NCBI GenBank assembly: GCA_003140895.1
Contig: PLLH01000114.1
Location: 18,857-51,128 of the forward strand
Length of the DNA: 32,272 nt
Source: Elusimicrobiota bacterium
GTDB taxonomy: Bacteria > Elusimicrobiota > Elusimicrobia > F11
Direction: 5' to 3'
Shown here: positions 8,757-32,272 of the stretch, piece by piece
Position numbering within the stretch: position 1 is the first letter of the stretch
Layout: the number at the start of each line of letters is the position of its first letter
The notes under the pieces: generated by a model
The model's input: the letters and a program-made list of their open reading frames with translations, nothing else
Database searches by the model: none
Told to the model about the DNA's origin: nothing
Made by a program: the position numbers and the translations under genes

Positions 8757-8760
8757 CGCT

Positions 8761-10023: not shown

Positions 10024-10032
10024 CGACTCGCC

Positions 10033-11508: not shown

Positions 11509-11520
11509 GAGGGTTAACGA

Positions 11521-12213: not shown

Positions 12214-12255
12214 GACGACCCCTCTTCGCGCCACCCCGCTCAAGGCTTCATCGCT

Positions 12256-13401: not shown

Positions 13402-13408
13402 GAGAACC

Positions 13409-14767: not shown

Positions 14768-14879
14768 CGGCGTCAGTAGCCTTTTACCTCAAATTGGTCT
14801 ATTTTCCCACTTTCCCCGAAATACTCCAAAAACGATTTAAACCCCAAAAAAAGTAAAAAAACCCCTGATATTTACCGCA

Positions 14880-14932
14880 TTTTAACCCAACCTTAAGGAA
14901 ACCTTAATCCAGCTCTGTTACGATTCTGTTAC
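14880..14932 (+). promoter_or_regulatory. 11-bp-periodic TTAA/TTAC array upstream of the giant gene
   Basis: TTAA occurs at 14882, 14893 and 14904 (exact 11-base steps). TTAC then occurs at 14918 and 14929 (again 11), the last two within the perfect direct repeat CTGTTAC-GATT-CTGTTAC (14915-14932). The layout of 7-base half-sites every 11 bases is that of PhoB/OmpR-type operators. TTAA(C) at 11-base spacing also resembles Bacillus PhoP boxes. TGTTACGAT could instead be an extended -10 element placed after a three-site operator. The same architecture recurs at 24853-24916. The rest of the 169-base gap (14768-14879) is A- and C-rich with nothing else clear. Confidence 0.6.
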
Positions 14933-15017
14933 AGGTATGAGCCTTTCAATTATTACGGCATCGGAGCCACAATTGAAGAATGAACGTCAATGCGTGTATA
15001 GAAAGGGGAAGACGGAA

Positions 15018-18000
15018 ATGAAACGGATCGGACTTTTTTCATCTCTGTTTCTTTTTGTGGCGGCGGCCTCTGTTTGCGCCGCCGTGCCGCAAGCGCCCAC
15101 CTGGCCGGCTTCTCCCTTGTCCCGAACCGATAAATCGATTTCCGCACAGTGGTTGGACAGCGCCAATCCCGCCGGGACCAAATACCGTTTGGAAGTGTCG
15201 TCGGACGGTTTCCAAACGATCGTTTCCAGCCAGACCGCCATGCTCTCCGCCACAGTGAACGAATTGCTTTCTAACACATCGTACGACGTTCGCGTGGTGG
15301 CGTTGGACGCCATCGATTCCACTCCCAGCGATTATTCATCCACTCTTCCCATTTACATGTTGGCGGCGGTTCCGGGTCTTCCCACCATCGGCTCCATTTT
15401 TACGCCGGAGAGAGACGCCGTGACGGTTCGCTGGCTTTCAAATGAAAACAGCGCCGGGACTCAATATCATGTCCAGGCTTACGTGTATCAAGAAAATTCT
15501 ATTCCGGGTGTAACCACTAAAGCCTGGGTACCGGCGCAGGCGCAGGATACGACGGACACCTCTGTTCGATTTGCGTCTCTTGCAAATAACACGACCTACT
15601 GGTTTACAGTGAGCGCAGTTCATGCCGAAGGCGGAACGACATCGCCGCGTGATCTGGGAACCGCTGTCACGCTGCCGGGAGCTTTTTCATTGATTCCTGA
15701 CCATCCGGCGAGTTCGACCGTGTGGTACGGCAGAGCCGACAGCACCATCACGTTTCAAACCGACGCTTTTGCCAATGGAGCCGCCTCTTATATTCGATAT
15801 CGCTGGCTTCCGTACCAGGACACTTTTACGTGGCCTCAGGACAGCGATCAGGCGCAGATAAACACGATTTGGAGCGGCGGGGACCTCGTTATCTCGAACT
15901 CCTACACGGCGCCCTTCTATCTGCACGTGAAAGCGTACAACGCCGTGGGGGCCTCGAACTCCCAGAGCGAGACCGTGATGGGCCCGTTCCTTATTGATTA
16001 TTTTCCGCCGAATCCGAATCCGGCTATTTTAACGTCAACGAAGACCAATACGTCGATCACATGGAATGCGAGCCAGGCAACGGATCCCAGCGGCGCCTCC
16101 GGACTTCACGCGAAACCATACGGATGGACGTTTGATGGGGGAGCCGAACTATTTACAGCGGGGCAATCGTCGCAAACAATTCATTTGACGCCGAACACGG
16201 GTCACACCATGACGCTTCGCCTTCGTGACCAGGCCCAACCGCCGAACATGACGGACGCTGTTTCCACCACCGTCGTCACCGCTCAAAATAAACCTTTGAG
16301 CGTGGCGGTGACCTTAAGCGGCACGGAAGCGGATGTGACAGTGGCGGGCGATTTCCCATTTATTACCGAAGGCCTGTCAGGCCTTCAGGTTCGATTGTCG
16401 GATTCTCATACGGAAATTTTCTCTCCCATTCAGCAAACAGTTTCGTTCCACTTTACGGGGCTACTTCCCAACACGGTTTATGAGATGAAGGCCAAAGCCT
16501 TTAACCGGGCCGGCGAAGAAACCGATTGGTGCACAGCGGGTACTTTCACAACTCCCGGCGGGCCCGCCCACATCACGGCCGATAAGGCCCCGTACAATCC
16601 GCCGAGTCCCGGAGGGATATATAAAGGAGGAACGGTGATTCGGTTCACCGACGACGGCGCTTACGGCCGGGGCGAGGTCGCGTATTACAAATTTCTTCTT
16701 TCCGGGTCGGCTTCGGAACCGGGGCCGCTGGACTGGCAAAACAGCATCGGCATTTCGCGCGGCAGTTGGGCCAGCGCTCCGTTTAATGGAACCCAGAGCT
16801 TTTACGCTCATATTCGCAGTTATGACAGCAGCAATCAGTCCATCGCGGGCGGATACACCCGGCTGGGGCCGTGGTGGATCGATAACGATCCGCCGATAGA
16901 CGTGGGAACGCCGACGGTGGATGTGAGCGGCAGTTCCACGCTGGTCTTTAACGCCGGAAGCCCGGAAGACATTGGCCCGGCCGGTCTTCCCTTGGCTCCG
17001 TATTCTTTTGATGGCGGACAAACCTTTCAGGTGGCGGCCTCTTCTTCTTTGGTTGGCTTGGAAGCCAACTCCTATCACGCCGTGGACATCGTTTATCAGG
17101 ATTCCGTCGGAAATCTCACTCTCCCGACTCATAAAGACGCGTACACGCTTCAGAATCAGCCCACGGGAATCAATGTCACGTTGCTTCAAGGGAAACACAT
17201 CGAATTGAGCGCCGCGGGTGATTTTCCCCGATTGAATCTTAATTTGTCCGGGCTTCAATTCGGCTTACAAAAACCCGATCTCACCATTACGTGGGCTGAT
17301 TGGGTTCAAGTCAATTACGCCGCGTATGATTTGGCCTCGTTTAACACAACGTACACCTTTGTCGTTCGGGCGCGGAACGCCAATGGCGTCCTCACGGCTC
17401 AAAGCCCGCTTGTGCCCATCACGACGCCGCCAACATCGCCGAGCATCGGCGTCATTCAGGGCACGCTGAACGCGTGGGGAACAAATCCCACTTATATTTT
17501 TAAGGCGTTGGACGCCGCCGGCCCCACCACCTATGATCATTACGTCTATGCCTGGAACAAAGAAGAAGTTTATGCCGGAATGATCACGGATGTGTGGCCC
17601 GTTGGGAGTTCTCAGCTGAGTTTCACGGCCGCTGACTCCGGCAAGTGGTATCTTCATATTCGCTCCGTTAATTCCGCCGGAGATCAGATGAGCGCTGTGA
17701 CGACGATCGGATGGTTCGGGTATGACGTCGTTCCTCCGACGATGGTCCAATTCGGTGATCCGTCGACCACGATGAACAGCGTTACCTGGACGGCGCTGGC
17801 CAATACGACGGACACGTTTTCCGGCCTTCACACCGAGCCGTTGGTTTGGAACTGCGGCGACCCCGCCAAAGAACAATTTTCAACTCTTCTTAATCCTCAG
17901 ATCATTGTACTGGGTTCGCCCAATCAGCTTTATGCGATGACCTTGTGCGCTCGAGATGCCTTGGGAAATCGGAGCGCGCCTGTCTCACTATCGACCTATA

Positions 18001-21000
18001 CCCGGGCCGCCGATGTGAGCTTGAGCGCGCGCGATACATTCGCAGTGTATCAGGGATCCGTCACGGTGAAATGGAGAGACGGCGGGAACCCCAATGGGAC
18101 CCCATTTAAGGTTCAACTTTCCGCGTCGGACACATTCGCTTCGGTGGATGAAAAACGCATCGTTCGTTCTGACCCGGCCGATGGCATCATGTCAGCCCTT
18201 TTTACCGGGCTCACGACGAACACAACTTATTTTGTCCGCGTCAGCGCCGTGAACGGCCTCAACGTGGAGACCGCGCCTCTGAGTTTGGGTTCCGTGACCA
18301 CCCGGCCCCAGTCTCCCTCAATTAAAGTCACCGTCAACGCCGAAACAGACCCAGCGCCGGAAGGCGAGGGCGCTGTGTTCGCGCCCGGCACGGTGTTTCA
18401 CGCGGCGAGCCTGATTCCCTTTGGATCCGGAACCGTTGAGTATCTGCGGTGGGTGTGGAATTCCAATCCCAACAGCGTGATATGGTCCAATCTGGATACC
18501 TTGGCGGACGCCACGCATCCCATCACGGTGACGGCGTCCACGAAAGGGCGCTATTACCTGCATGCGGCGGCGTTCAGCGGCGGCGGAATGTCGGCGAGCG
18601 ACAACCCTGACGAAATCGTTAAAGGGCCGTTCAATATTGTGACGGCCAATGACTTTACTCCGGCGTTCGTTTTCGTTGAATCCAGCACGAACACCATCTC
18701 AATCAGCCAAGCGATCGTCGTTGGAGATCAATTCGCCGGTGTTGCGGAACCTTATGGATATCAGCTCGACGGGGGCGACATCCACTGGGACTCAAAGACG
18801 ACGTACGTCGCGACAAGTTTAGAACCCAATAAGTCTTATTCAGTTCATATCTATTTAAAGAACGCGGTGCCTCAGATTTCAAGCGCGGTGAGCCAAACGG
18901 TAGTGACAAAACAGAAAACACCGGAGCTGATCGTTGCTTCCAACGTGTCGGAGTCAAGCATGACATTGACCGCCAGCACGCCTGGCGGGTTTTTCAATAC
19001 CGGCGCCGACCCCACCGGTTTCAAATTTAGTTTGATATCCGGTCCTATCACGATATCCCCTGCCTGGATAGTGAACCCGACATTGGTTATTCCGGCGGGG
19101 GGGCTTGATCCCAATAGAACCTATTCAGTGACAGTGCAAGCCCGGAACAGCGCTGGCGATGTGACGCCTCCATCCATCGCATTTTCGGTGACAACTTTGG
19201 CCAAAATTCCTTCTTATCCCAATATCAAACCTGATACCGTTAATAATGTTTCCGATTTCGACGTGAATGGATATTACAAGCCCGGAAAACTCTTTTCCTT
19301 CAGCTCTTCAGACTGGGCGCTCGTGAATTATTACAAGGTCATCGTCGATCAAAACGACAAAGTGATGGACATGAGCGCTTACGACAATGCGGCGCTGGCC
19401 GCCACATGGATCAGCAACAAATTCTCAACGGCGCCCGCCGCGGCGGGAACGTATTACTTTCATTTCCGTTCTTACAATAGCGCTAACGTGGGAGGACCGG
19501 ACTATACTTTCGGTCCGGTTTACATTGACGATCAATCGCCCACACCGAATCCACCTGTTTTGGCGGGAGTTGATGTGTCTGCGGAACAAGTCATCTGGAC
19601 CGCGACGCCCGCCACGGACGGGGGGGGCGCCGGATTGGACGTGAACCAGGCGTACAATTTCCAATACCCCGACGGGGTTTGGGGTGCCTCTACAACAACG
19701 ATGTACAATCTTCAACCCAACACGCGTGTCTCCATTAGTTTGGTGGTTCGCGACCGCATCGGGAACGTGACCTCCGCGTTGGATAAATCCACGGTCACGA
19801 AAGCGGCGGTTCCATTCCCATTCAGTAGTTCTCTCAATGACGTAACGACCGGCGGATCGTCGGCTTCCATGGGATGGGAGAAGCAAAACAACTCGGACAA
19901 GACGGTTTATGAGATCGGCGCCTCGCTCCTGCAGGATATGTCCAACCCGATTGTGCAAGCGGTGGGAACGGATGTGTCGACGGGAGAGATTACGGGGCTT
20001 CAGATCAACACGGATTATTGGTTCGCGGTCAGAGCCGTGAACGCCTATGGGTTCCGGACGGCGTGGGCGCTCGTGGGAAGTCACACATGGAAAACGAAAA
20101 ACGAGATTGTCACCCCCAGTGTCAACGTCACTCAGGTTTTAACGGATTCCATTCAAGTGGAGTGGTTGGCGAGCATTTATCCAGTCGGAACGACTTTTGA
20201 AGAGCTTCATAACAGCGGCGGCATTCTGGATGAAACGCCACCGCCGGTGGCCGCGAGTTCTCCTCACACGGTTTCAGGCCTCACGCCGAACATGAACCAT
20301 ATTATTGGGATTCGAGCGAAGAGCGCCTCCAGTGTCTACAGTTTGTACGCGACGGTGAGCACGACCACCCTGGCCGACGCCCCGGTTCTGCAAACGTTCA
20401 CGCTGAATGTGACATCGGCCTCCGTGGCATGGACGGCGGCGCGTAACCCGATTGATACGAAATACGAGATCCGGGCCTCTCTCGTCTCGACGCTGGACCA
20501 ATTTACGGACGTGAAATCGACCATGACAGGAACCAATGGCGTTCTAAAAGGGCTCATTCCCGATACCGATTATTATTTCGGCCTGAGGGCTTTGGACCGC
20601 ACGGGCCGTCCGACCGCCTGGGTTTCGTTGGGAGAGGCTCGGACCCCTGTGATGCCCCCGCAACTGCCGTATTCGTTCACCAATCTGACGGGAAACTCGA
20701 TGCGGCTCGACTGGGGCGGAGGAACCAATCCGACGGGCGTTCAATACGTGGTAGACCGTTCCATTGATCAATTTGCTTCGGCTCCTCAAAAAACAGAAAC
20801 GATCGCCAACACGTATGTGGCGCCGGCGGATCTCGCTTTGAACACAACCTATTATTACCGCGCCAAAGCGGTGAGCTCAAATGGAGAATCGGCTGTTGTG
20901 TCGTTGGGAAGCGCCGTGACTCTTTCAACGATGCCTGCCGCCGGCGTTCTCTCGCCTGGAATTAATTATGTGGGCGTGAGTTGGTTGCCGAACGGGAACC

Positions 21001-24000
21001 CTTCGGGGACGATTTATTATGTCGAAGCGGCGGATAATCTGGCGTTTATGAATTTGATCCGCAGTAATAATGTGACGGATCAACAGGTTCGCATCGAGGG
21101 GTTGAAACAAAACACGACGTATTGGTTCAAACTCTATTCCGTGAACTGGGCGGGGGCGATCTCGGACGCTCTGTCGCCGGGGTTCGCCATCACGCAGGTG
21201 TCAACCCCGGTGCTCCCGACGTGCGAGGCCAAATGGAACGCCTCGTCCGGGACGTATGTCCATGTGATCATTAGCGCCGGCGACATGAATCCGGAAGACA
21301 CGCTCTATGCCATTTTTAACACCAACACCGCCGCCTATTTAACCGGCGATGGTTCATCGTCTCCCACGCCTGTTTGGTTGACGCGCACCGACTGGGATGG
21401 AAGCGGAACAGAGGTGAATCCAGGGAAAGCCATCCACGCGCACTTGTCACCGTGGACGGAATACGGGTACAAGATTCGAGCGAAGAACCGGGCCGACGTT
21501 TTATCCGATGGTTTCTCTGACGAGCAAACAGTGACGACGGTTCCAGGGAAGCCCAGCTTGACTGCTTCGGTGGCGGAGCAGGATTATGTCCGGCTTCAGT
21601 GGGCCAGCACGGACGCCGAAGTGTTCCGTATGTACGTTTCCCCAACCGGCGTCGCCGGTTCTTTCACCGCTTACCATGATTACGTTGCTGCTAATGTAAA
21701 TATTCATTACATCAAACAGGAAGGGCCAAATGATATCCCATACAATTTGCGGGAAATTCGTCATGATGCGGAGGGAGGAACCCCCGCCCAGGCCGGAGGA
21801 TTTGCTCAAACGCTCGTCAGTACGGATTCCATTGCGTTTCAATGGGAGACGGTTGTCTCTCCAGCTCCGGCGCCGCGGTATTATTATTATCTGAGAGGCG
21901 TCGGGCGTTTGGAGGAAGAGGGCGAGCCCTCGGACACGGTGTCGGCGCAGGTGGTTCCCGTCATCAGCAGTTATGTGATTGCCGGGACGAGAACGGGAAA
22001 AGACACGGACCCTCAATATCAATTTGTCGCTCCGGCTGGAACGTCCGTGACCGTTCCGAATTTGCAGCCGAACACCCATTTGCGCGTGGGCCTCAAAGCG
22101 CGCTCGTCTGATGGATTGGAAGGGGTGAGTTCCAACCCCATCGACGCGTGGTCGCTGGCGAATGTTCCTGGCCAGCCCGTGGTCACGTCCGGTTTTGATG
22201 ATTCCCACCACGTTTTCTTGAATGTTGATTTCAGCACCTCGGGGAACCCCGCTCATACTCAATACGCCATACGATGGGTGGAAGGGAATAAGTATATCGC
22301 CGGCGGCGGAACGACGACTGGTTTGACCGACATCAATTGGCTCACGAAAGAGGAATGGGATCGCGGGTTCACTCACACGGGGCTTCCGACAGCGACGACG
22401 TACACCTACGACGTGTTGGCGAGAAACGGCGATAAATCCGGGGGGCCGCATATCATGACGGTCCCGTCAGCGCCCGGGTCGGGTCAAACCATCAGCTTCC
22501 CGCCTCCAACGCAGCTGTCCGGGAGCGGGGCGTCGCAATCGGCCATTTTGTGGACTTGGATGGACAATTCATCGGATGAGACAGGATTTGAAATCGATGA
22601 AACGGTGAGCACGACTCTCGTCACGCGCGTCTCCCGAGTGGGCAGTATTCCTCAAGCGAACACCGGGACGTTGAACGCGACGGAATCAGGCCTTCCGACG
22701 CCGAATACGCCCTACAGCAGAACTGTTCGGGCGTCCAATGTGAACGGGTATAGCTTTTCCTCCGCTCCTGCGGAAGCGTGGACGCTGGCCATGGATCCGG
22801 ATGTGGAGTCCACCACGCATAAGATCAACGAGGTCTCGCAGGTCATCAAGTTTAAGTTTAAGAACAATCTGATCTTTGGACAGGGAACGGCCCATCACTA
22901 TTCGGTCAAATTCACGACGAGTCCCGCCTACGTCTTTTCTGGAACGGAAGTTCGCTGGGACGACCCGGCGGAGATCAAAGAATTTACGAGGGATGTGATC
23001 GATGTCAACACCAGCTGGTATCTGCACGTGTTGAGCTTCAATAATCAGAACACGCCGTCCGTGCACCGCGTGCTGGGGCCGTATCCGTTGTTCCAGGACG
23101 TTGTTCCGCCGGAAGTTTCCGGGTTTAGCCAGGACGGGGCCCAGGCCATCAGCGGGGCCCGCCCGGCGTCTGAAATAGGTTCGATGTTGAGCGCGAAAGC
23201 GGTGTCCAAGAAAAGCGTGAAGTCCGCGCCCACGGAGCCGCAGTTGGACGTCTCCTTTGCGGCCTCCATTCCGTGGGTGCCCTCGGTCCACACCATCCAT
23301 ATTGGTTTCACCAAACGGCTTGATCCGGACACCGTGACCAGCAAGACAGTTCTTGTCCGGGCCATCCAGAATAATTTGAGTCAAGCTGTCAGCAACTCTC
23401 AGCCCATCTCATGCTCATTGACCTATAACGATGCGGAGCAGCGGCTGGACGTCGGGTTTCCTCAGCCCGGTCTTCCGCCGGGGTATCTCTTTGAATTGGA
23501 GTTGACCAAGGGCGTGTTGGATACCGGGGGGAATTCTCTGGCGGAAGAATTCCGCTACTACTTCAGGACTTTCCTCGATCCGGGAGTTGACAACGAATTG
23601 ATCACCAGCGACGGCGGGATCATTTCGACTCGGATCCACCTGTCGGCCGGATCTTTGCCGAAACAAGGCGCCATTGGGGCTGAAACGGATCCCGCCAGTT
23701 ATTCCTGGGGGTTTGATTCCAACGCTCAGAAGATAGCGACGGAAAAGCAGATGTCGATTGGGGGCGCGTTTGCCCGGCCGATCTCGCAACGTTACCTGGG
23801 GCTCTTTGACACCAACCATAATTTGACGAACGGCAAGTTGAAAGCGCCCGCCGTCATCATGATTCCCTTTTTCGATGAAGACAATGACGGCTATGTGGAT
23901 TCTGTTCTGCCTCCGGGCCGCCGGAATGTCCAAACAAACAGTCTTGATGGATTGGCCCAAAACGGGGTTCGGATTAAAGTGTCGAATCTGGGACTCTACC

Positions 24001-24398
24001 GGTTCGATCAGGAAACGCAATTGTGGATTAAGGTGCCGGGGGCTCAAGTCGACACCCAGAGCAAGACCGTGGGCGGGCAGATTTACCAGATGGGGCTCTA
24101 CGCGGTCTTGGGGACCGCTTCCAACGACGTGTCCAACACGTACGCGTATCCCGTTCCGTTTGTGGCTTCAAAAGACAGGGAAATAAAGTTCGTTAACCTG
24201 CCTGACGCGGGGGAGATAAAGATTTATACTGTGGCCGGAGAATTGGTGAAAGAGATCCGTTTCGACGCCACACGGTCGGACCCTCTTGCGTGGGACGTGA
24301 AAAACGAGAGCGGAGAAAAGCTGGGAGCTGATGTCTATCTTTATCAGGTCAAATCAGGAGGGAACCAGAAGACAGGGAAACTTGTCATCGTTCGATAA
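15018..24398 (+). CDS. Giant secreted fibronectin-III-like repeat protein with Por-tail-like C terminus
   Basis: The chosen ATG (15018) begins a classic signal peptide (MKRIGLFSSLFLFVAAASVCA) after a GGGGAAGACGGA ribosome site. An in-frame ATG at 14937 would precede it poorly. The 3126-residue product has two FnIII-like modules (about 25-221), five super-repeats (222-1694), further FnIII modules (1695-2592), an extra copy of the super-repeat's first module (2593-2705), and a Ser/Lys/Ala linker. A Big_5-like Ig domain (about 2740-2850) follows, then a region with a DEDNDGYVD calcium-loop-like motif (2952-2960). A FlgD-Ig/type IX secretion-tail-like domain lies at 3042-3126. No enzyme domain is seen. 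A cell-surface adhesin or structural role is likely, with export by Sec and then a PorV-type route (inference). Confidence 0.88.
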   Translation: MKRIGLFSSLFLFVAAASVCAAVPQAPTWPASPLSRTDKSISAQWLDSANPAGTKYRLEVSSDGFQTIVSSQTAMLSATVNELLSNTSYDVRVVALDAIDSTPSDYSSTLPIYMLAAVPGLPTIGSIFTPERDAVTVRWLSNENSAGTQYHVQAYVYQENSIPGVTTKAWVPAQAQDTTDTSVRFASLANNTTYWFTVSAVHAEGGTTSPRDLGTAVTLPGAFSLIPDHPASSTVWYGRADSTITFQTDAFANGAASYIRYRWLPYQDTFTWPQDSDQAQINTIWSGGDLVISNSYTAPFYLHVKAYNAVGASNSQSETVMGPFLIDYFPPNPNPAILTSTKTNTSITWNASQATDPSGASGLHAKPYGWTFDGGAELFTAGQSSQTIHLTPNTGHTMTLRLRDQAQPPNMTDAVSTTVVTAQNKPLSVAVTLSGTEADVTVAGDFPFITEGLSGLQVRLSDSHTEIFSPIQQTVSFHFTGLLPNTVYEMKAKAFNRAGEETDWCTAGTFTTPGGPAHITADKAPYNPPSPGGIYKGGTVIRFTDDGAYGRGEVAYYKFLLSGSASEPGPLDWQNSIGISRGSWASAPFNGTQSFYAHIRSYDSSNQSIAGGYTRLGPWWIDNDPPIDVGTPTVDVSGSSTLVFNAGSPEDIGPAGLPLAPYSFDGGQTFQVAASSSLVGLEANSYHAVDIVYQDSVGNLTLPTHKDAYTLQNQPTGINVTLLQGKHIELSAAGDFPRLNLNLSGLQFGLQKPDLTITWADWVQVNYAAYDLASFNTTYTFVVRARNANGVLTAQSPLVPITTPPTSPSIGVIQGTLNAWGTNPTYIFKALDAAGPTTYDHYVYAWNKEEVYAGMITDVWPVGSSQLSFTAADSGKWYLHIRSVNSAGDQMSAVTTIGWFGYDVVPPTMVQFGDPSTTMNSVTWTALANTTDTFSGLHTEPLVWNCGDPAKEQFSTLLNPQIIVLGSPNQLYAMTLCARDALGNRSAPVSLSTYTRAADVSLSARDTFAVYQGSVTVKWRDGGNPNGTPFKVQLSASDTFASVDEKRIVRSDPADGIMSALFTGLTTNTTYFVRVSAVNGLNVETAPLSLGSVTTRPQSPSIKVTVNAETDPAPEGEGAVFAPGTVFHAASLIPFGSGTVEYLRWVWNSNPNSVIWSNLDTLADATHPITVTASTKGRYYLHAAAFSGGGMSASDNPDEIVKGPFNIVTANDFTPAFVFVESSTNTISISQAIVVGDQFAGVAEPYGYQLDGGDIHWDSKTTYVATSLEPNKSYSVHIYLKNAVPQISSAVSQTVVTKQKTPELIVASNVSESSMTLTASTPGGFFNTGADPTGFKFSLISGPITISPAWIVNPTLVIPAGGLDPNRTYSVTVQARNSAGDVTPPSIAFSVTTLAKIPSYPNIKPDTVNNVSDFDVNGYYKPGKLFSFSSSDWALVNYYKVIVDQNDKVMDMSAYDNAALAATWISNKFSTAPAAAGTYYFHFRSYNSANVGGPDYTFGPVYIDDQSPTPNPPVLAGVDVSAEQVIWTATPATDGGGAGLDVNQAYNFQYPDGVWGASTTTMYNLQPNTRVSISLVVRDRIGNVTSALDKSTVTKAAVPFPFSSSLNDVTTGGSSASMGWEKQNNSDKTVYEIGASLLQDMSNPIVQAVGTDVSTGEITGLQINTDYWFAVRAVNAYGFRTAWALVGSHTWKTKNEIVTPSVNVTQVLTDSIQVEWLASIYPVGTTFEELHNSGGILDETPPPVAASSPHTVSGLTPNMNHIIGIRAKSASSVYSLYATVSTTTLADAPVLQTFTLNVTSASVAWTAARNPIDTKYEIRASLVSTLDQFTDVKSTMTGTNGVLKGLIPDTDYYFGLRALDRTGRPTAWVSLGEARTPVMPPQLPYSFTNLTGNSMRLDWGGGTNPTGVQYVVDRSIDQFASAPQKTETIANTYVAPADLALNTTYYYRAKAVSSNGESAVVSLGSAVTLSTMPAAGVLSPGINYVGVSWLPNGNPSGTIYYVEAADNLAFMNLIRSNNVTDQQVRIEGLKQNTTYWFKLYSVNWAGAISDALSPGFAITQVSTPVLPTCEAKWNASSGTYVHVIISAGDMNPEDTLYAIFNTNTAAYLTGDGSSSPTPVWLTRTDWDGSGTEVNPGKAIHAHLSPWTEYGYKIRAKNRADVLSDGFSDEQTVTTVPGKPSLTASVAEQDYVRLQWASTDAEVFRMYVSPTGVAGSFTAYHDYVAANVNIHYIKQEGPNDIPYNLREIRHDAEGGTPAQAGGFAQTLVSTDSIAFQWETVVSPAPAPRYYYYLRGVGRLEEEGEPSDTVSAQVVPVISSYVIAGTRTGKDTDPQYQFVAPAGTSVTVPNLQPNTHLRVGLKARSSDGLEGVSSNPIDAWSLANVPGQPVVTSGFDDSHHVFLNVDFSTSGNPAHTQYAIRWVEGNKYIAGGGTTTGLTDINWLTKEEWDRGFTHTGLPTATTYTYDVLARNGDKSGGPHIMTVPSAPGSGQTISFPPPTQLSGSGASQSAILWTWMDNSSDETGFEIDETVSTTLVTRVSRVGSIPQANTGTLNATESGLPTPNTPYSRTVRASNVNGYSFSSAPAEAWTLAMDPDVESTTHKINEVSQVIKFKFKNNLIFGQGTAHHYSVKFTTSPAYVFSGTEVRWDDPAEIKEFTRDVIDVNTSWYLHVLSFNNQNTPSVHRVLGPYPLFQDVVPPEVSGFSQDGAQAISGARPASEIGSMLSAKAVSKKSVKSAPTEPQLDVSFAASIPWVPSVHTIHIGFTKRLDPDTVTSKTVLVRAIQNNLSQAVSNSQPISCSLTYNDAEQRLDVGFPQPGLPPGYLFELELTKGVLDTGGNSLAEEFRYYFRTFLDPGVDNELITSDGGIISTRIHLSAGSLPKQGAIGAETDPASYSWGFDSNAQKIATEKQMSIGGAFARPISQRYLGLFDTNHNLTNGKLKAPAVIMIPFFDEDNDGYVDSVLPPGRRNVQTNSLDGLAQNGVRIKVSNLGLYRFDQETQLWIKVPGAQVDTQSKTVGGQIYQMGLYAVLGTASNDVSNTYAYPVPFVASKDREIKFVNLPDAGEIKIYTVAGELVKEIRFDATRSDPLAWDVKNESGEKLGADVYLYQVKSGGNQKTGKLVIVR
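15681..20099 (+). repeat. Five tandem super-repeats of 292-298 codons inside the giant gene
   Basis: Starts at 15681, 16563, 17439, 18315 and 19209 give units of 294, 292, 292, 298 and 297 codons. Each unit has the same three modules in order. The first is a beta module ending in a (Y/F)(Y/F)(L/F/A)H(V/I/F)(K/R)-(A/S)(Y/V)N-type strand plus a GP(F/W)-x-I-D turn and PP. The second is centred on an (L/P/A)Y(G/S)xxxDGG-type motif. The third is an FnIII module with L-x-x-N-T-x-Y and RA(R/V)NxxG. Similarity is at protein level. The DNA has diverged, so these are old duplications. Confidence 0.75.
24141..24395 (+). other. Por-tail/FlgD-Ig-like C-terminal domain of the giant protein
   Basis: Residues 3042-3126 begin YAYPVPF, continue with an IKIYTVAGELVKEI strand pair and WDVKNESGEKLG, and close with ADVYLYQV and QKTGKLVIVR. 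This is the pattern of type A type IX secretion C-terminal signals (PNPF box, xxGxxV, GVYxY, GKxxV). The stand-alone protein at 24402-24743 carries the same pattern. In Bacteroidota such tails are recognised by PorV during export. Confidence 0.7.
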
Positions 24399-24401
24399 CC
24401 T

Positions 24402-24743
24402 ATGAAACCAATCATCGTTCGCTCAGCCTCTTTTATCGCGCTTCTAACGGTTCTCTTTTGCGCGCCACGCCTCTCTTTTGCCGAGCCTCATGTCTTTCCC
24501 AATCCCTTTATCGCCAAAGATCACGCGTTTGTCCGATTCACTGATTTGCCCGGTCCCGGTTCCATACGAATCTTTACCGTCTCCGGGGAAAAAGTGGCTG
24601 ACATAACGATTGCCGCCGGGGAAGATCCCAAAAAATGGGACGTCGTCAATTCTTCCGGCGATAAACTGGCCACCGGCGTCTATTTGTACCTCGTTGATAC
24701 GGGGAGTCAAAAAACAGCCGGTAAAATCGTGGTGATTCGTTAG
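24402..24743 (+). CDS. Stand-alone secreted Por-tail-like domain protein
   Basis: This 113-residue protein is a signal peptide (about residues 1-27, ending SFA) followed almost only by one FlgD-Ig/Por-tail-like domain: VFPNPF, IRIFTVSGEKV, WDVVNSSGDKLATGVYLY and GKIVVIR. It aligns end to end with residues 3042-3126 of the giant protein upstream but is well diverged in DNA. It starts 3 bases after that gene's stop with no good ribosome site of its own, suggesting coupled translation. It may be a detached export signal, a competitor or gauge for the sorting machinery, or a small structural subunit. The function is unknown. Confidence 0.85.
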   Translation: MKPIIVRSASFIALLTVLFCAPRLSFAEPHVFPNPFIAKDHAFVRFTDLPGPGSIRIFTVSGEKVADITIAAGEDPKKWDVVNSSGDKLATGVYLYLVDTGSQKTAGKIVVIR

Positions 24744-24852: not shown

Positions 24853-24916
24853 TTTAAGCTCAAATTAACCCGATCTTAAGGAATCCTTAACCCCATGTGT
24901 GTTACAGTTTGTTTAC
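24853..24916 (+). promoter_or_regulatory. Second 11-bp-periodic TTAA/TTAC array, upstream of the PorV-type operon
   Basis: TTAA occurs at 24854, 24865, 24876 and 24887 (three exact 11-base steps), then TTAC at 24902 and 24913 (11). The core CTTAAGGAATCCTTAACC matches CTTAAGGAAACCTTAATC of the first array nearly base for base. The TTAA-to-TTAC step is 15 here and 14 there. TGTTACAGT could be an extended -10. Transcription from here would leave a short leader before the AAGGAG site at 24943. Confidence 0.6.
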
Positions 24917-24956: not shown

Positions 24957-26987
24957 ATGAAAAAAGCGGGCCGAATCAATCGAAGCCATGATTCCTCGAA
25001 TTCCGCAACCGTTTCTCTTCTGCGGGTGATGGCCTCCTTTTTTGTTTTGGCCGCGTTTTGCGCCTCGCCGGTTGTTCTTCAGGCCGCTTCCGCCGGATCC
25101 TCCACCGCCAACTTTTTGAAAATCGGAATTGGAGCTCGCGGCGCCGCCATGGGAGAAGCTCAATCCGCCATTTCCAACGATGTCACCGCCAGCTACTGGA
25201 ACCCCGCCGGGTTGGCTCCTCTTCGGTATCAGGAAATTTCGCTCATGCACTACGCTCTTGTCGAAGGGATTCGTTACGAACAAGCCAGCTTCGCTCTTCC
25301 CACGGTGAAAAACGGAACCTTCGCCATGGGCTTAAGCCTCATGAACTACGGCAATATTCAAGGCTACGCCGACACCGGGATGCCGAACGGCAACGTGGAA
25401 GCCTCCAACATGCTTTTCACCGGTTCTTGGGCGAAACAGCTTTTTGAGAAATCCGATCTGTTGACCGGCGTCAACGTTAAATATCTTAATTCAAAGCTGG
25501 CCGGCTTCAGCGCCTCCGTCCCGATGATGGACGCCGGAATTCTTCTCCCTTTTAAAACGGGCCGTCTTCATGGCCTGAGCCTCGCCGCCACGATCAAGAA
25601 CGTGGGGCCCCAAGTGAAATTTGACACGGAAGGGTCGCCTCTTCCCCGGCAGATGGTGCTGGGCGCCGGGCTTTCCGCTTTGGGAGGGAACCTGAATGTG
25701 GCGGTGGACGCCATTTCGCCCGTCGACAACAACCCCTATTTCGCGGCCGGCGTTGAATACCGCGTTTTTGAGATGCTGCATCTTCGGGCGGGATACAACG
25801 GGAAATCAAAATTTGTCGGAACCGGAATCACTTACGGAATCGGAATCCGGTTCAACCAGTGGAATTTGGATTACGCGTTCGTGCCCTACGGCGATCTGGG
25901 AAACACCAACCGGGTGAGCGTCGGCATTCGTTTCGGACGCGCTCTTAAGATGCAGACAGCGGAAGACCAGGTTGAATTCGCCTACCGGAAAGCGCAGAGC
26001 GAATTGGCTCTGGGCCAGGGCGTTGAGGCGTACAGCACGTTGAACGATTTATTGCTCATCGCGCCGTGGCACAAACCTTCCGTCGAGCTTAAAGCGAAAG
26101 TGGAGAAGCAATTCGGCGAGATGGCCGTCTCCAAAGACAAGGCGAAGATGGAAGCCGAAATCGCCGATAAATTCACGGCAGCCCAAGCGGCCTTTGATCG
26201 GGACGAGCTGGTCCAGGCCAAGAAAGGATTTGGAACCATTCTTTTACTTCAACCGGAGCATGTGGGATCCAAAGTGTATCTCGATCGGATCCAGAACCGG
26301 TATGCCGCCTTGGCCCAGGAATCCTTCAAAGAGGGAATGGCCACCTTCGCGGCGGGCGATTACCAGAAAGCCAAACTCTTCTTCGAGAAGACCCTCTCGA
26401 TCGACAGCAACCACGTCGACGCGAAGGCGCAGCTGGATAAGACGATCGAAGTGATGGCGGATTCCAAGAAACGCGATGAAGAAATGAACCGCCTGGCCAA
26501 CGCTTCCGGCGGATATAAAGACGGCCTGGCCGCTTTCCAGAAAAATGACCTCGAAACTGCTTTGAATCGGTTCGAAGAAGTGAAAAAATTAGCCCCTGAA
26601 TTCGAGGAAGTCACCCGCTATACTGAGTTGACGAAAAAAACGCTGGCCGGTGTCCTCTTTGAGCAGTCTCAGGTGCACGTGACCAACGGGCAAATGGAAG
26701 AAGCGGTGAAGAAATTGACGCGGGCGGTTGAGCTGAATCCGGCGGACACGCGGTTTAAACCCGCTCTCGATATCGCCACTCGCGATTTGGCCACCAAGAA
26801 TTTCCAGGAATCCCAGAAACTTTACAAAGAAGGGCTCGAAGCGTATCTCGGAGGAGACGGTGACCAGGCTGAAAAGAAATGGCGTCGCGCGTTGGAGTTG
26901 GATTCCTCGAATGATGACGCTTTGAAGGCCATCACCAAGCTTCAGGAACGGAAGAAATATGAGAGCCCGAACCAACAACCCCAATAA
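24957..26987 (+). CDS. PorV/PorQ-like outer-membrane barrel fused to C-terminal TPR repeats
   Basis: The ATG at 24957 has AAGGAG 8 bases upstream and gives 676 residues. An upstream in-frame start (24897) overlaps the promoter array and is rejected. A signal peptide (to about residue 45) is followed by a barrel-type region (about 46-328) with the PorV/PorQ-family opening FLKIGIGARGAAMGEA and SYWNPAGLA, then alternating amphipathic strands. Residues about 345-665 are helical TPR-like repeats (for example GMATFAAGDYQKAKLFFEKTL and AVKKLTRAVELNPAD). PorV binds cargo tails in type IX secretion. Ordinary PorV lacks the TPR half, which would lie in the periplasm and could recruit partners. The next gene overlaps its end by 29 bases. 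Confidence 0.85.
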   Translation: MKKAGRINRSHDSSNSATVSLLRVMASFFVLAAFCASPVVLQAASAGSSTANFLKIGIGARGAAMGEAQSAISNDVTASYWNPAGLAPLRYQEISLMHYALVEGIRYEQASFALPTVKNGTFAMGLSLMNYGNIQGYADTGMPNGNVEASNMLFTGSWAKQLFEKSDLLTGVNVKYLNSKLAGFSASVPMMDAGILLPFKTGRLHGLSLAATIKNVGPQVKFDTEGSPLPRQMVLGAGLSALGGNLNVAVDAISPVDNNPYFAAGVEYRVFEMLHLRAGYNGKSKFVGTGITYGIGIRFNQWNLDYAFVPYGDLGNTNRVSVGIRFGRALKMQTAEDQVEFAYRKAQSELALGQGVEAYSTLNDLLLIAPWHKPSVELKAKVEKQFGEMAVSKDKAKMEAEIADKFTAAQAAFDRDELVQAKKGFGTILLLQPEHVGSKVYLDRIQNRYAALAQESFKEGMATFAAGDYQKAKLFFEKTLSIDSNHVDAKAQLDKTIEVMADSKKRDEEMNRLANASGGYKDGLAAFQKNDLETALNRFEEVKKLAPEFEEVTRYTELTKKTLAGVLFEQSQVHVTNGQMEEAVKKLTRAVELNPADTRFKPALDIATRDLATKNFQESQKLYKEGLEAYLGGDGDQAEKKWRRALELDSSNDDALKAITKLQERKKYESPNQQPQ

Positions 26988-28317
26988 TAAACCGATTATC
27001 GCTTGTCTGGTGGTTCTCATCTGTCTGACGCTGTCTCTGCCTCTTTTTGCCTCCAATTCCGATGTGCAAACACCCGAAGAAAGAGCGCTGGCCAAGGCGT
27101 TTTCCGCTTACATGGACGGCAATGACAAAATGTCTCTCAGCTATTTCGAAGAAGTGGTTCGGATCAACTCAAAAAACCAAGCGGCCCAGAAAGGGTTGGA
27201 GAAAGTAAAAATCCGCTTGAAGAAGAGCAGCGATGTCGAACGGGCCAAAGCCAAACGGCTGGCTGAGTCCAAAATGAAAGAGGGCCGGCAGCTTCTTCGA
27301 ACCAAAGACATCGTCGCCGCCATCGATTCGTTTCATGCCGCTCAAGACGCGGTTCCTCACTACCGGCCGGCGGAGCGCCAGTTGAAAAAAATCCGGGCGG
27401 CCATGAACACGGTGTTGAAGCGTCAGCAATTTAATTTGACGGCGTGGGCCTTCGCGCGAGGCGTCATGGCCTATCTCGAGCGGGATTGGAGCAAAGCCTA
27501 CCGGATTTGGTCGGAGCGGCACTTGGTGGAGCCGGACAACGTTCCGCTTTCAAACGCCAAGCTGCGGGCGGAAAACAACTTTAAGAAGATGATGATCACC
27601 GAGCAGGAGGAGTTTTACCGGCGGAGCGCTCGGGCCTTTTATGAGCAGGGATATTACCTCCAGTCCAAAGGGTCGTGGGACAAGGTGTTGGTGCTTCGCT
27701 CCGATGATCTGGAAGCGTTGGAAGGGAAGGCTCGTTCCGAAGAAGCGTATCTCACGGTCACTGGAAAAGGACGAAACAGCGCGGCGCATGATCTTTTGGA
27801 GCGGGGGCTCGAATTTTTTGCCACGCAGGATTGGGAAAAAGCGCTGGAGATGTTTAAACAACTGGCCCAAGTGGATCCGAATCTCTCCACCGCCAACGAT
27901 TATATCGCCAAGATCAATCAGAATATAGCCTCAAGTAAAATTCGTCCCGCTTCGTCCGGAGGTCAATCGACCTGGAAACCGAATAAACCCTCCGCTCAAG
28001 AAGGCACAGACGTTGTTAAGGTTCCCGTCGGATCGGAAAATTTCGTCGAGCGTCGGCACGAGCTGGAGTCTCAACTGAAGCGGGACCCCTCCAGTATTCG
28101 GATTCAACAGGAGCTCGATAAAGTGCTCAAGGCTCAGGAGGAAGAGAGCGAGCGGATTTACAAAGACGGCCTCATTGCCTATTCTCAAGGAAATCGGGAT
28201 CTGGCGATCGATAAATGGAAGCAGGTGCTGATCATTAATCCCGATCATAAGAAAGCCGAAGCCGCTTTGAGAAAAGCCAGAGCGGAAGAAGAACGATCGA
28301 CAAAGGAGAGCCAATGA
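26959..28317 (+). CDS. Secreted TPR-repeat protein
   Basis: The 452-residue protein has a signal peptide (about residues 1-32, ending LFAS) and at least five TPR-like helix pairs. Examples are AFSAYMDGNDKMSLSYFEEV, FFATQDWEKALEMFKQLAQV near the middle, and AYSQGNRDLAIDKWKQVL near the end. A Gly/Ser/Pro-rich linker (about 330-350) divides the array. It probably acts as a periplasmic scaffold. The start codon lies inside the end of the PorV-type gene (29-base overlap, with AGGAACGGAAG upstream) and its stop overlaps the TolC-type start by 4 bases (ATGA), so the three are translationally coupled. It resembles the TPR half of the preceding protein. Confidence 0.85.
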   Translation: MRARTNNPNNKPIIACLVVLICLTLSLPLFASNSDVQTPEERALAKAFSAYMDGNDKMSLSYFEEVVRINSKNQAAQKGLEKVKIRLKKSSDVERAKAKRLAESKMKEGRQLLRTKDIVAAIDSFHAAQDAVPHYRPAERQLKKIRAAMNTVLKRQQFNLTAWAFARGVMAYLERDWSKAYRIWSERHLVEPDNVPLSNAKLRAENNFKKMMITEQEEFYRRSARAFYEQGYYLQSKGSWDKVLVLRSDDLEALEGKARSEEAYLTVTGKGRNSAAHDLLERGLEFFATQDWEKALEMFKQLAQVDPNLSTANDYIAKINQNIASSKIRPASSGGQSTWKPNKPSAQEGTDVVKVPVGSENFVERRHELESQLKRDPSSIRIQQELDKVLKAQEEESERIYKDGLIAYSQGNRDLAIDKWKQVLIINPDHKKAEAALRKARAEEERSTKESQ

Positions 28318-30434
28318 AACGGGCGGGGCGCCTCATCGTCTTTTTTGCGATTGGTTTGTTGAGCTCCAGCGTTTACGCGAAAAAGCGCCCGGTGGTCGCG
28401 GCGCCAGTCCCGCCGGAGGTGGTTGTGAGTTCTGAGGCCAGTGTAGAGCCGTCTCTCGCGTCGACCGACCTCTCAATTTCGACTCAAACAGTCCAGGCCC
28501 CGGCAGAATCTCCTCAGGTGAGTTCAGCTCCGGTTGTTCCGGCCGCGAAGCCCGCCGAGGTTAAAACGTCCACTCCAACGCCGGAGGGGCTTGTTTCCGG
28601 CGGAATGTTGCCGGCCTCAACGTCGTATTTTGACCATTCCCCTTCAACGGCGCCCGCCAACGCGGTTGAGAAAATTTCAATCGACGACACCGGAACCCGG
28701 CTTCTTGTGATGATTCACCTCTCGAAACCCACCGATTGCTTTATTTTCGAACGGCGCGACCCGCCGTCGCTCTTCGTCCAATTTATCACGACACCCGTGT
28801 TTGCCTCCGGACATCCCGTGGAAGCGGTGGGCTTGGATCCCTTGTCGGAAATCCGGTATGGGTATTCCACCTTCAATGACGCTTCCGCGGCCGCTGACAA
28901 TCGGGAAAAGAAATATCAAATCGACTTTTTGGAACTCCGGCTCAATCGTTCCGTTTTCTATCACATTCAGCAAGAAGGGTGGGTTGTTGTGATCGGATTG
29001 GATCGAACGACGACGAAAATCGAGGTTCCGGAGCTGGATTTCCGGTTCGACGTGGCCAAATACGAAGGGGCCGCCAACATTCCGAAGAATCCGCGGATCA
29101 ATGATTTTGTTCAAACAGCGCAAGCGAACAGCCGTCTCATGGCTGTGTCCCGGGATGAGGCGGAGCTGGCGAAGAAGCGGATTGTTGAAGCCCAACGGGC
29201 CCTTCTTCCCTCGGTCACCGGCCGCGTCGCCGCCACGCGAGGAAAAGAGAAAAACCCGTTCCCCAATGAAAATTTCGAGGGATTTGAAGGCGCTTCCTTC
29301 CGCCGGGACGAGTACGGCGTTTCGGTGGCCCAACCCATCTGGCAATCCGGCCGCCTCTACGGCGCCTATAAACAAGCGAAGCTCAACCGTCAGATGGCGC
29401 TTGAGAACGTACGGAAACAAGCTCAGGACCTCACGTACGAAGTCAAAAAGGCCTATTACACCCTGATCAAGAATCAGACGACGCTCCGTATTCGTCGGGA
29501 ACTGGTGGCGCAGGGAGAAGCCATCAAGTCCATGACGAAGAAAAAACTGGATCTCCATTTGACGTCCAAATCAGAACTGTTGAATGTGTCGGCCCAGGCG
29601 GATCAGGCGTCTTATCAGATGACCAGCGATGAGCAAGACGTGTCTCTCTCCCGCCTGGTCCTTATTTCTCTTCTCAATCAGTCTGACTCGGTGCCCGATC
29701 CCGTGTCGGGGGCCCTTTCCTTCGCCAAGCTCAGCTTTAACGTGGAATCCATTATTGCCTGGGCGCAGGAACATCGCCCGGATGTGCGGATCGCCCGCTT
29801 GAACTCCGAACTCGCCCGCTACAATTGGAAAGCGGCGCGGGCGGACAACGGTCTTAAACTGGATTTCTCCGGCTTTTACGGCCGGGCGGGGGCCACGTTT
29901 GATGAAGCTGATTCTGAACTCCGTATGGAGAAAGCGTGGAACGCGGGGTTCAAATTATCGCGGTCTTTCTGGGGGAACTCCGTCCGGGCCAATTACAGCA
30001 AAGAATCCACGGCGCCGGATTTGGGCCAAGTGTTCATCACGAACACCCAGCAGAAATCCGTGGAAGTGGGGCTCCTGGATGGTTTGCCCGGACTCTCCAA
30101 CGCCAAACAAGCGCAGCTTCAGTATGAAAAAGCGCAGGCGGAGCTTGTGGAAGCCGGACGGAAGGCCGAATATGAAGTTCGAGAGTCCTATTACAATTTA
30201 GAAAAAGCGGCCCGGCAAATCGCCGCCGTCCGGGAGGATATGTTATTCCGCCAAAAAGATTTGGATATATCGCGGGAGAAAGTTAAGCTGGGTCTGGCGG
30301 AATTCTCACAGCTCATGTCGGCCGAAATTTCGTCCACGCAAGCTCAAGTGACGGAACAAGACGCCTTGGCGGCCTACAACATCGCCCTCTCCAATATAGA
30401 TCGGGTGGTGGGCGCTGAAGTTGTGAAAGAGTAA
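28314..30434 (+). CDS. TolC-family outer-membrane channel with N-terminal AMIN-like domain
   Basis: The 706-residue protein has a signal peptide (about 1-22), a Pro/Val/Ala-rich linker (24-115), and an AMIN-like beta domain (about 116-232: EKISIDDTGTRLLVMIHL and PPSLFVQF). An outer-membrane efflux (TolC) region follows (about 260-700) with two repeats of long helices, such as RQMALENVRKQAQDLTYEVKK and AQLQYEKAQAELVEAGRK. TolC forms the trimeric exit duct for RND or type I systems. AMIN domains normally target peptidoglycan in amidases and PilQ, so the fusion may fix the channel to the wall. The RND pump begins 12 bases later. Confidence 0.87.
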   Translation: MKRAGRLIVFFAIGLLSSSVYAKKRPVVAAPVPPEVVVSSEASVEPSLASTDLSISTQTVQAPAESPQVSSAPVVPAAKPAEVKTSTPTPEGLVSGGMLPASTSYFDHSPSTAPANAVEKISIDDTGTRLLVMIHLSKPTDCFIFERRDPPSLFVQFITTPVFASGHPVEAVGLDPLSEIRYGYSTFNDASAAADNREKKYQIDFLELRLNRSVFYHIQQEGWVVVIGLDRTTTKIEVPELDFRFDVAKYEGAANIPKNPRINDFVQTAQANSRLMAVSRDEAELAKKRIVEAQRALLPSVTGRVAATRGKEKNPFPNENFEGFEGASFRRDEYGVSVAQPIWQSGRLYGAYKQAKLNRQMALENVRKQAQDLTYEVKKAYYTLIKNQTTLRIRRELVAQGEAIKSMTKKKLDLHLTSKSELLNVSAQADQASYQMTSDEQDVSLSRLVLISLLNQSDSVPDPVSGALSFAKLSFNVESIIAWAQEHRPDVRIARLNSELARYNWKAARADNGLKLDFSGFYGRAGATFDEADSELRMEKAWNAGFKLSRSFWGNSVRANYSKESTAPDLGQVFITNTQQKSVEVGLLDGLPGLSNAKQAQLQYEKAQAELVEAGRKAEYEVRESYYNLEKAARQIAAVREDMLFRQKDLDISREKVKLGLAEFSQLMSAEISSTQAQVTEQDALAAYNIALSNIDRVVGAEVVKE

Positions 30435-30446
30435 GTCGCCCTCGCT

Positions 30447-32272
30447 ATGCAAATCGGAACCATTTTCGTCAAACGGCCCGTCATGACCTCAATGATGTTC
30501 TTGGGGTTGACGCTCTTCGGCATTATTTCCTGGATCAAACTTCCGCAAGAACTTTTTCCCAGCATCTCCGTCCCGCAACTCGTCATTATCACGAAATACT
30601 CCAACGCCGCCCCTGAAGAAATTGAAAACCTGATCACGAAACCCATCGAGGAAACCGTGGGAACGGTTCCCAATTTAAAACGCGTGAAATCCGTCAGCCG
30701 CGAGGGTCTTTCAGCGGTGACGTTGGATTTCGCGTGGGGCACGGATATGGGATTTGCTCATCTAACGACCCGCGAGAAAATCGACCGCATCAAGGACCGG
30801 ATGCCGACCGAAGCGGAAGAGTCGATTATCAAACGCGTGAATCCCTTTTCTCATCCGGTGCTCATTGTGAGCGTGACCGGCGAATTCCCGCTCGTCGAGA
30901 TGACCGAGCTCTGCGAGGACATGATCAAAAAGAAGTTGGAGAAGGCGGAAGGCGTGGCCTCGGTTTCAATTTCCGGCGGACAAAAACGAGAAATTCTCGT
31001 CGAAGTGGACCGGGGGCGGCTTGAAGCGAGCCGGATTTCACTTCCCATGGTTGTTGAGTCTCTCAAAAACGCCAACTACGATTATCCGGCCGGTGTGACG
31101 CAGGGGAAAGTAGTGGAATATTTGGTTCGCACGCACGGGCGATTCACGAAAATAGACGACATCGGCAAGACGATTGTTCAAGTGGAAAATCCGGAAAATG
31201 ACCCCGTCTACAAATGGTCGAAGCAGGACAATCGCGGTCATACGAGCGCGCCACGAGATCAACGTCTGATTTCGTTGGGCGATATGGCGGAGATTAAACA
31301 ATCATTAAAAGACCGGACCAGCTATTCCCGTTTCAACAGCAAGGAAAACATATCCCTCTCCATTCAGAAACAGTCCGAGGCCAACACCGTCAAAGTGGCC
31401 AAGGCCGTCAAGGCCGCGTTGGGCGAACTTCGGGATTCTCTTCCGAAGAGCGTGAAAGCGGAAGTCACGTACAACGAAGCGGATTATATTGTGACGGCCC
31501 TCGGCAACATGCGGGATAACGTGATCATCGGCGGCTTTTTGGCTTTCTTTGTCCTTCTTTATTTCTTGGGCAATGTCCGGGACGCGCTCAACATGGGTCT
31601 CGCGATTCCCATGACCTTGTTCGCGACGCTGGTCATGATGCTGGCCATGGGAATTTCCGTCAACATGTTGACTCTGGCCGGCATCGCCCTGGCAGTGGGA
31701 ACCATGTCGGACTGTGCGACTTGTGTCACGGAAAATATTGCTCGTCACCACACGCAGCTCAAAAAGCCGCTTCTGGATTCCGCCATCGACGGGGGGAATG
31801 AAATGGTGGCTTCCATGCTTTCCTCCACCTTGACCAACATCTCCGTTATTTTGCCGATGCTTTTCATTAGCGGGATTACGCAGCAGCTCTTTCAGGATCT
31901 TTTCCTGGTCACGATATTCACTCATATGACGTCTCTCGTTATTTCTCTCACGTTCATTCCGCGTATGGCGGCTTACGATTGGTCGCTGCCGTCCTTCATT
32001 AAATTGCCCAACGTGTCCCAATGGGTCATGACGGACGAGAAGAGCCGCCGCATGAACAATTTCTACCGGAAATCGTTAGAGACGGTATTGAATCATCCGT
32101 TGACCTTCGTCCAGTCGGTGTTGGTTCTCTTCGCGGTGACGGTGTTTCTTTTGGTGGTGATTCCGAAAACGTTTATGCCCAAAATGGACCAAGGCCAGTT
32201 TATTGTTCAATTGACGATGCCCATCGGAACACGACTGGACGTGACCAACAACGTCGCCACCAAACTTGAGAC
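30447..32272 (+). CDS. RND-family efflux transporter, 5' part (runs off the window)
   Basis: The first 608 codons of an RND (AcrB/HAE-type) pump are present. The opening is typical: FVKRPVMTSMMFLGLTLFGI, with LPQELFPSISVPQLVI and EIENLITKPIEE. Porter domains, the first membrane-helix block and the second periplasmic loop start (TFMPKMDQGQFIVQLTMPIGT) follow. These pumps export lipophilic compounds or lipids by proton exchange. In the proton-relay helix the usual VDD or VDN reads MSDCATCVTENI. One Asp (422) is retained, but its partner is Cys423, with a further Cys426. A SWSK/Asn-rich insertion (about residues 246-275) is also visible. It pairs with the TolC-type gene 12 bases upstream. No adaptor gene lies between them. 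Confidence 0.9.
   Translation, partial: MQIGTIFVKRPVMTSMMFLGLTLFGIISWIKLPQELFPSISVPQLVIITKYSNAAPEEIENLITKPIEETVGTVPNLKRVKSVSREGLSAVTLDFAWGTDMGFAHLTTREKIDRIKDRMPTEAEESIIKRVNPFSHPVLIVSVTGEFPLVEMTELCEDMIKKKLEKAEGVASVSISGGQKREILVEVDRGRLEASRISLPMVVESLKNANYDYPAGVTQGKVVEYLVRTHGRFTKIDDIGKTIVQVENPENDPVYKWSKQDNRGHTSAPRDQRLISLGDMAEIKQSLKDRTSYSRFNSKENISLSIQKQSEANTVKVAKAVKAALGELRDSLPKSVKAEVTYNEADYIVTALGNMRDNVIIGGFLAFFVLLYFLGNVRDALNMGLAIPMTLFATLVMMLAMGISVNMLTLAGIALAVGTMSDCATCVTENIARHHTQLKKPLLDSAIDGGNEMVASMLSSTLTNISVILPMLFISGITQQLFQDLFLVTIFTHMTSLVISLTFIPRMAAYDWSLPSFIKLPNVSQWVMTDEKSRRMNNFYRKSLETVLNHPLTFVQSVLVLFAVTVFLLVVIPKTFMPKMDQGQFIVQLTMPIGTRLDVTNNVATKLE

Follow-up and report, generated by a model that had tools for sequence, protein, structure and literature searches.

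Gene P0001 (24402..24743, + strand), positions being those of the window, by which the whole 32,272-nt stretch analysed here is meant, encodes a protein of 113 aa that consists of a signal peptide and one complete type-A-like tail of the type IX secretion system (T9SS), with no other residues. Such tails are usually regarded as address labels at the C terminus of far larger surface proteins. Taking sequence and structural model together, about an even chance is given to the reading that P0001 is a cargo-less T9SS-type tail subunit which acts with the adjoining barrel, a PorV-family protein carrying TPR helices, as its constant tail partner. P0001 would be exported by Sec and then fold as a complete C-terminal domain (CTD), would most likely bind the adjoining barrel with its TPR domain, could pass through SprA to a surface location, and may fill, prime or clear the barrel for the giant adhesin of the same operon. 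Since a recurrent tail-only gene adjoins a barrel that is expected to grip tails, the secretion tag is probably now a working part itself; and with a tail-only protein beside its own shuttle, constrained in the one measurable case, an own job of the tail becomes testable. A wider reading is put forward tentatively: in Elusimicrobiota the tail may be an independent subunit, many PorV-family barrels each keeping a dedicated tail partner and a tail-only protein replacing a cargo that is not needed. The T9SS "signal" would in that case belong to the structure of a shuttle dedicated to one cargo, as its plug, its primer or a ligand that clears it.

Signal peptide, domain and predicted fold of P0001

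Visual inspection of the N terminus, MKPIIVRSASFIALLTVLFCAPRLSFA followed by EP, and a hydropathy maximum of 2.93 over 10 residues both point to a good Sec signal peptide of 27 codons (24402..24482, +), with predicted cleavage between SFA and EP, which is followed by a mature type-A-like CTD of 86 residues (24483..24740, +). That a mature protein of about 86 residues is nothing other than a tail had been proposed in an earlier sequence-only reading, and this is borne out by the TIGR04183 model (T9SS type A sorting domain; 32.3 bits, cut-off 23) and by the predicted fold. The score against Pfam PF18962 was 23.9, below the gathering score of 27, and the type B CTD model TIGR04131 gave no match to P0001 at E 0.1. 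A tail profile built without P0001 scored it at 97.9 bits (107.2 bits with P0001 in the training set), so the match is not one of chance. The AlphaFold2 model, computed from aligned sequences of the window and the named loci, is a complete 7-strand Ig-like domain with pLDDT mostly 93–97 from residue 31; ranks 1–5 of its VIA-align matches are all T9SS CTDs, namely PorZ (Z 12.5), PorU (11.2), mirolase (10.2), NucA (9.7) and FspA (9.3), the NucA and FspA domains having been solved in T9SS substrate complexes, inside SprA complexes. A cargo domain before the CTD is absent, and P0001 is not a T9SS cargo protein in that sense. No viral relatives were found. The gene, the complete predicted fold and the signal-like N terminus are established at the level of sequence and model.

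Junction with the giant cargo gene and upstream elements

P0001 follows the gene of a giant secreted cargo (14937..24398, +; 3153 aa as called) with a repetitive body and its own C-terminal tail (24138..24395, +), the latter ~42–44% identical to P0001. A signal-peptide start (MKRIGLF) lies at 15018, inside the called ORF, and the giant of the related genome G001 is orthologous to it (39–44% identical over two long stretches). The stop codon of the giant (TAA, 24396–24398) is followed by CCT and then by the ATG of P0001 at 24402, and the ORF coordinates thus agree with the 3-base spacing reported earlier. The P0001 ORF is in frame with the giant, one stop codon lying between them. The equivalent of P0001 in G001 is 190 nt downstream of its giant and out of frame, so P0001 is not simply the end of a giant cut by a stop codon, and a split giant was ruled out. 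A palindromic REP-like element lies between the giant and the stand-alone tail gene of G001 (L036:6282–6471).

By eye, no Shine-Dalgarno-like stretch is present 5–15 nt upstream of the P0001 ATG, which fits coupled re-initiation and is no proof of it. No consensus sigma-70 promoter or terminator was found between P0001 and the PorV gene, and P0001, for which no separate promoter was found, is probably on the transcript of the giant. The fixed P0001:giant stoichiometry that had been proposed survives in part: the close spacing is real, but the corresponding cluster of G017 has no giant, and in the pair G006/G015 the stand-alone comes after PorV, not after the cargo.

A composite cis-motif, TTAAGGAANCCTTAA-N-TGTTAC, lies upstream of the giant and the stand-alone (14893..14921, +), with a second copy upstream of the PorV+TPR gene (24876..24905, +). 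Exactly two matches occur in the 2.53-Mb genome, both at these sites, and a reversed control gave none; the pattern was derived from both window sites, so the real result is that the genome holds no third match. The motif is also present upstream of PorV+TPR in L129 and L225/G003. A search of 14750–15040 for sigma-54 sites (GG-N10-GC, at least 7/11 matches) yielded none before the window giant, and sigma-54 control of this gene was ruled out on that basis. Promoter-like sigma-54 sites with 11/11 matches were seen directly before five tail genes of related clusters (L040, L044, L039, L041 and L078), several of them near a gene for an NtrC-type activator.

The probable PorV-family partner

The gene downstream of P0001 (24957..26987, +) encodes a PorV-family outer-membrane barrel (~14 strands) with C-terminal TPR helices. 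It scores 165 bits against NF033709 (cut-off 90), its fold matches PorV (8gl6_F, E 1.5e-13), and it is 68% identical to the PorV+TPR protein of Candidatus Obscuribacterium magneticum (class Elusimicrobia). PorV-family proteins occur in 41/41 Elusimicrobiota genomes and show a large shuttle expansion, with 34 matches in the source genome (G000, 2.5 Mb) and 2 to 38 in other relatives.

The constant neighbour of stand-alone tails is a PorV-family barrel. Across 94 tail genes, a PorV-family gene adjoins 21/22 stand-alone tails (18/19 without three contig-edge cases), 4/5 short and 53/67 long cargo tails, the last figure counting as adjacent those long tails that are separated from their PorV by a stand-alone. 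A greedy gene caller, which missed PorV genes, gave 18/20 for stand-alone and 38/67 for long tails, and a count by distance only, which missed adjacent PorV genes whose domain is distant from the tail, gave 16/22 versus 50/67 (Fisher p 1.0). Because 53 of the 67 long tails share it, this adjacency is nothing special to stand-alones, and their PorV linkage is not clearly higher than that of cargo tails; tails in these genomes are as a rule paired with a PorV, the stand-alones included. In G001 the gene after the stand-alone codes for a lipase and not for a PorV.

Distances among tails correlate with those among their neighbouring PorVs (r 0.73, 78 pairs); when PorVs were reshuffled within genomes the correlation was 0.26 (sd 0.06), and 0/2000 reshufflings reached the observed value. 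Such co-variation could stem from joint duplication of both genes as a unit. P0001 is nearer to tails beside TPR-type PorVs (n=22) than to those beside plain ones (n=55; p 0.002). In Ca. Obscuribacterium magneticum (L129) no tail gene lies upstream of PorV+TPR, and none was found beside it in G003, so in these two genomes PorV+TPR needs no adjacent tail. At L129:3000–9626, upstream of PorV+TPR, lies a gene of 2208 aa in which no tail is recognisable.

Gene cluster, synteny and a possible signalling role

The cargo, tail and PorV genes are flanked, at 8689–14767 and 26959–32270, by a tripartite RND pump (HlyD, TolC-like OEP, RND) and four two-component genes. All are on the + strand. On the upstream side these are an HlyD/CusB-type membrane-fusion protein (8689..10023) and a HAMP histidine kinase (10033..11508), both in conserved order; an OmpR/PhoB-type response regulator (11521..12213), identified by its Response_reg and Trans_reg_C domains; and a response-receiver/histidine kinase hybrid (12256..13401) and an NtrC-type sigma-54 activator response regulator (13376..14767), both by domain match and conserved order. 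Downstream of the barrel follow a TPR protein of the cluster (26959..28317; Pfam TPR, conserved order), a TolC-like outer-membrane efflux protein (OEP, 28314..30434; domain match, conserved order) and an RND transporter (ACR_tran, 30447..32270; domain match and relatives), which extends past the window end.

The arrangement of RND pump and two-component genes is conserved in G017 and, as two pieces, in G001. In G017 (L131/L044) the order is that of the window (HlyD, histidine kinase, response regulator, hybrid kinase, NtrC, stand-alone, PorV+TPR, TPR, OEP, RND), with two extra receiver-like genes, with the giant absent and with no gene between the regulator and the stand-alone. As this cluster has a stand-alone and no giant, the stand-alone is tied to PorV and not to the giant. 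In G001 the order from HlyD through kinase, regulator, hybrid and NtrC to giant and stand-alone is kept, and PorV+TPR, TPR, OEP and RND are found farther on along the same contig. Elsewhere the order is cargo, PorV+TPR, stand-alone (L133/L134), a cargo is present with no stand-alone (L132, L142), or a stand-alone is present without an adjoining cargo gene (L145, as in L131).

The two histidine-kinase genes and the OmpR-type and NtrC-type regulators of the cluster, together with the 11/11 sigma-54 sites that precede a number of tail genes in clusters of this kind, would suit a surface signal by which the tail reports shuttle occupancy to the two-component genes. The model for this is PorA of Porphyromonas gingivalis, described in the accessible part of one paper (PMC7712824) as a CTD protein with an input into PorXY signalling and with a CTD that interacts with PorV. 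According to the same part of that paper PorA, a small CTD protein as is P0001, has 246 aa and a FimH-like N-terminal domain; P0001 has no such domain, and identity with PorA was ruled out for this reason. Cargo tails hold the same position in other genomes and the window giant has no sigma-54 site upstream, and a signal of the PorA kind is considered quite improbable.

Recurrence and phylogeny of stand-alone tails

A search with P0001 found tails in at least 35/41 Elusimicrobiota genomes. The search for further short signal-peptide-plus-tail genes, suggested in the sequence-only reading, was positive, with at least 21 complete stand-alone tails in at least 14/41 genomes and 7 families (short frames among the matches listed). 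Stand-alone tail genes are real and recur; they are not a curiosity of a single genome. By hydropathy a hydrophobic signal-like segment is present in 21/21 complete stand-alones and, as control, in 7/17 other window genes; among the 21, L036 and L046 are stand-alone only if an internal start codon is used, and the N terminus of L110 is long. Three contig-edge stand-alones (L001, L049 and L125) are additional to the 21 and may be truncated cargos. Loci were chosen by similarity to P0001, stand-alones also by their short frame, and do not form a random sample. At E 0.001 TIGR04183 matches the source genome 13 times, and 10 of these matches exceed the cut-off.

In a tree of tails, which was made from short sequences and has many weak nodes, the stand-alones are polyphyletic and appear in several places. 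P0001 is clearly divergent and sits on a long branch. The stand-alone is sister to the tail of its own cargo in L040 (0.98) and L048 (0.95), and each of these may therefore be a recent duplicate. Other stand-alones group across genomes (L053/L054/L055/L110, and L050 with L126 at 0.94, the latter two from different families). From the scatter and the cross-genome groupings it follows that the stand-alone type arises repeatedly and persists in some lineages.

The sister placements in L040 and L048, and a tail subfamily and neighbouring PorV common to stand-alone and cargo in several loci, would also be expected of a decoy or competitor, a free tail that occupies PorV or the channel of SprA and so limits display of the giant. 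The stand-alones of L131 and L145, with no cargo gene adjoining, would have no local competitor, and a decoy is regarded as rather unlikely.

Clusters of another make-up were observed in L050 and L221, where a stand-alone tail and a PorV-like gene occur with a Wzc-like (GNVR/AAA_31) gene and no cargo gene is nearby; the L050 cluster also contains glycosyltransferases.

Selection on stand-alone tails

The polyphyly of the stand-alones, the two local duplications, the patchy presence and the divergence of P0001 would also suit an idle copy of a cargo tail or a functionless remnant of one, and the sequence-only reading had listed a remnant of a second cargo beside a decoy and an anchor subunit. 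The dN/dS check proposed there was applied to the sole closely related pair (G006/G015, loci L039/L041; two species of one genus) and indicates purifying selection: the stand-alone tail has dS 0.43 and dN 0.010 (dN/dS ~0.02), against dN 0.47 and dS 1.43 for the body of the adjoining cargo; the signal peptide of the stand-alone has dS 0.25 and dN 0.24. Strong purifying selection on the tail in this pair argues against a remnant. For P0001 itself the only usable partner was the stand-alone of G001, with dN 0.59 and dS 1.45, near saturation.

In simulations of neutral drift on four related tails (1000 runs each; indels ignored, profile trained with P0001), the observed profile score was never kept at 0.2 substitutions per site or more, and a few of the sequences simulated with 0.1 substitutions per site did attain it. 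The signal-like N terminus in all 21 complete cases, the complete predicted fold and the sister placement of the L050 and L126 stand-alones across families likewise speak against the remnant, which is judged very improbable. Complete fold, constrained tail and loss of profile score under simulated drift all run counter to the remnant of a second cargo, and of the three explanations first listed an anchor or placeholder is still the best type.

T9SS machinery in Elusimicrobiota

An SprA-like protein of ~1800 aa was found in 39/41 genomes, including 26/26 good ones; that of the source genome is a 1871-aa ORF at L219:4267–9882 (G000:C32). The family profile matches solved SprA (E 6e-30) and the protein scores 172 bits against TIGR04189, under the cut-off of 200. 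The SprA_N Pfam model alone finds 9/41 genomes, so the homology to SprA is remote. Six small genomes of family f10 have the SprA-like protein and no tails detectable with P0001.

The PorU sortase (PF01364, Peptidase_C25) was matched in 1/41 genomes, a 14%-contaminated one, and not in the source genome; its absence from these genomes is no more than likely, as the model matched 0/14 control genomes too. The GldM model, for the PorL/PorM motor, matched 0/41 genomes, and the control genomes were also without a match. A 2024 paper (PMC11285876), in the part available, describes T9SS genes as absent from phyla other than the FCB-related ones listed there. A search of the open literature for T9SS together with Elusimicrobiota, covering few subscription journals and no preprints, returned type IX secretion only in reference lists, as far as the accessible parts of the papers go. 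The SprA-like protein in 39/41 genomes, the tens of PorV paralogues and the co-varying tail-PorV pairs suggest a T9SS-like route in Elusimicrobiota, contrary to what that part of PMC11285876 states. If so, a T9SS-like pathway would exist outside the FCB group, seemingly without the PorU sortase.

Comparison with known CTD proteins

P0001 shares the TIGR04183 profile and the 7-strand Ig-like fold with the type A CTDs of PorZ, PorU, NucA and RgpB. It differs from the systems in which these work in that no cargo is attached, the host is outside Bacteroidota and the PorU sortase is found in 1/41 genomes. In the SprA-PorV model, as given in an excerpt of PMC10994853, the CTD of the substrate attaches to loops of PorV within the SprA pore, after which PorV is displaced together with the CTD. 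A tail without cargo could play this part and hold the barrel occupied, prime it or clear it.

A precedent for a CTD protein of this size is Fjoh_0547 of Flavobacterium johnsoniae (112 aa), likened to P0001 by its description in the accessible part of PMC7712824 and by that description only. It is reported there in the medium even of sprA and porV mutants; secretion independent of SprA and PorV is unlike what is proposed here for P0001. A search for Fjoh_0547 by name, with preprints and most subscription journals outside it, found no second paper. Fjoh_0547 would be in keeping with an ordinary small secreted protein, in which the Ig-like domain is an effector or adhesin and PorV is an exporter only. 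The recurrent PorV pairing and the common cis-motif point instead to a link with the shuttle, and an ordinary secreted protein is thought highly improbable.

In type B systems, according to the available parts of PMC9143113 and PMC12618676, the uncleaved CTD is exported and anchored by its cognate PorP/SprF barrel, whose gene often comes directly after that of the tail, so that a tail gene is followed by the gene of its own shuttle barrel as at P0001. The P0001 locus differs in having a type-A-like tail, a PorV-family barrel with TPR and no cargo body, and assignment of P0001 to a type B pair was ruled out by the lack of a TIGR04131 match. In family f1 (L053, L054, L055 and L110) a second, type-B-like stand-alone tail follows a 520-aa PorV/PorP-like gene and is kept in 4/4 family genomes; in L053–L055 a gene of 535–569 aa (Omp85 in L055) lies after it.
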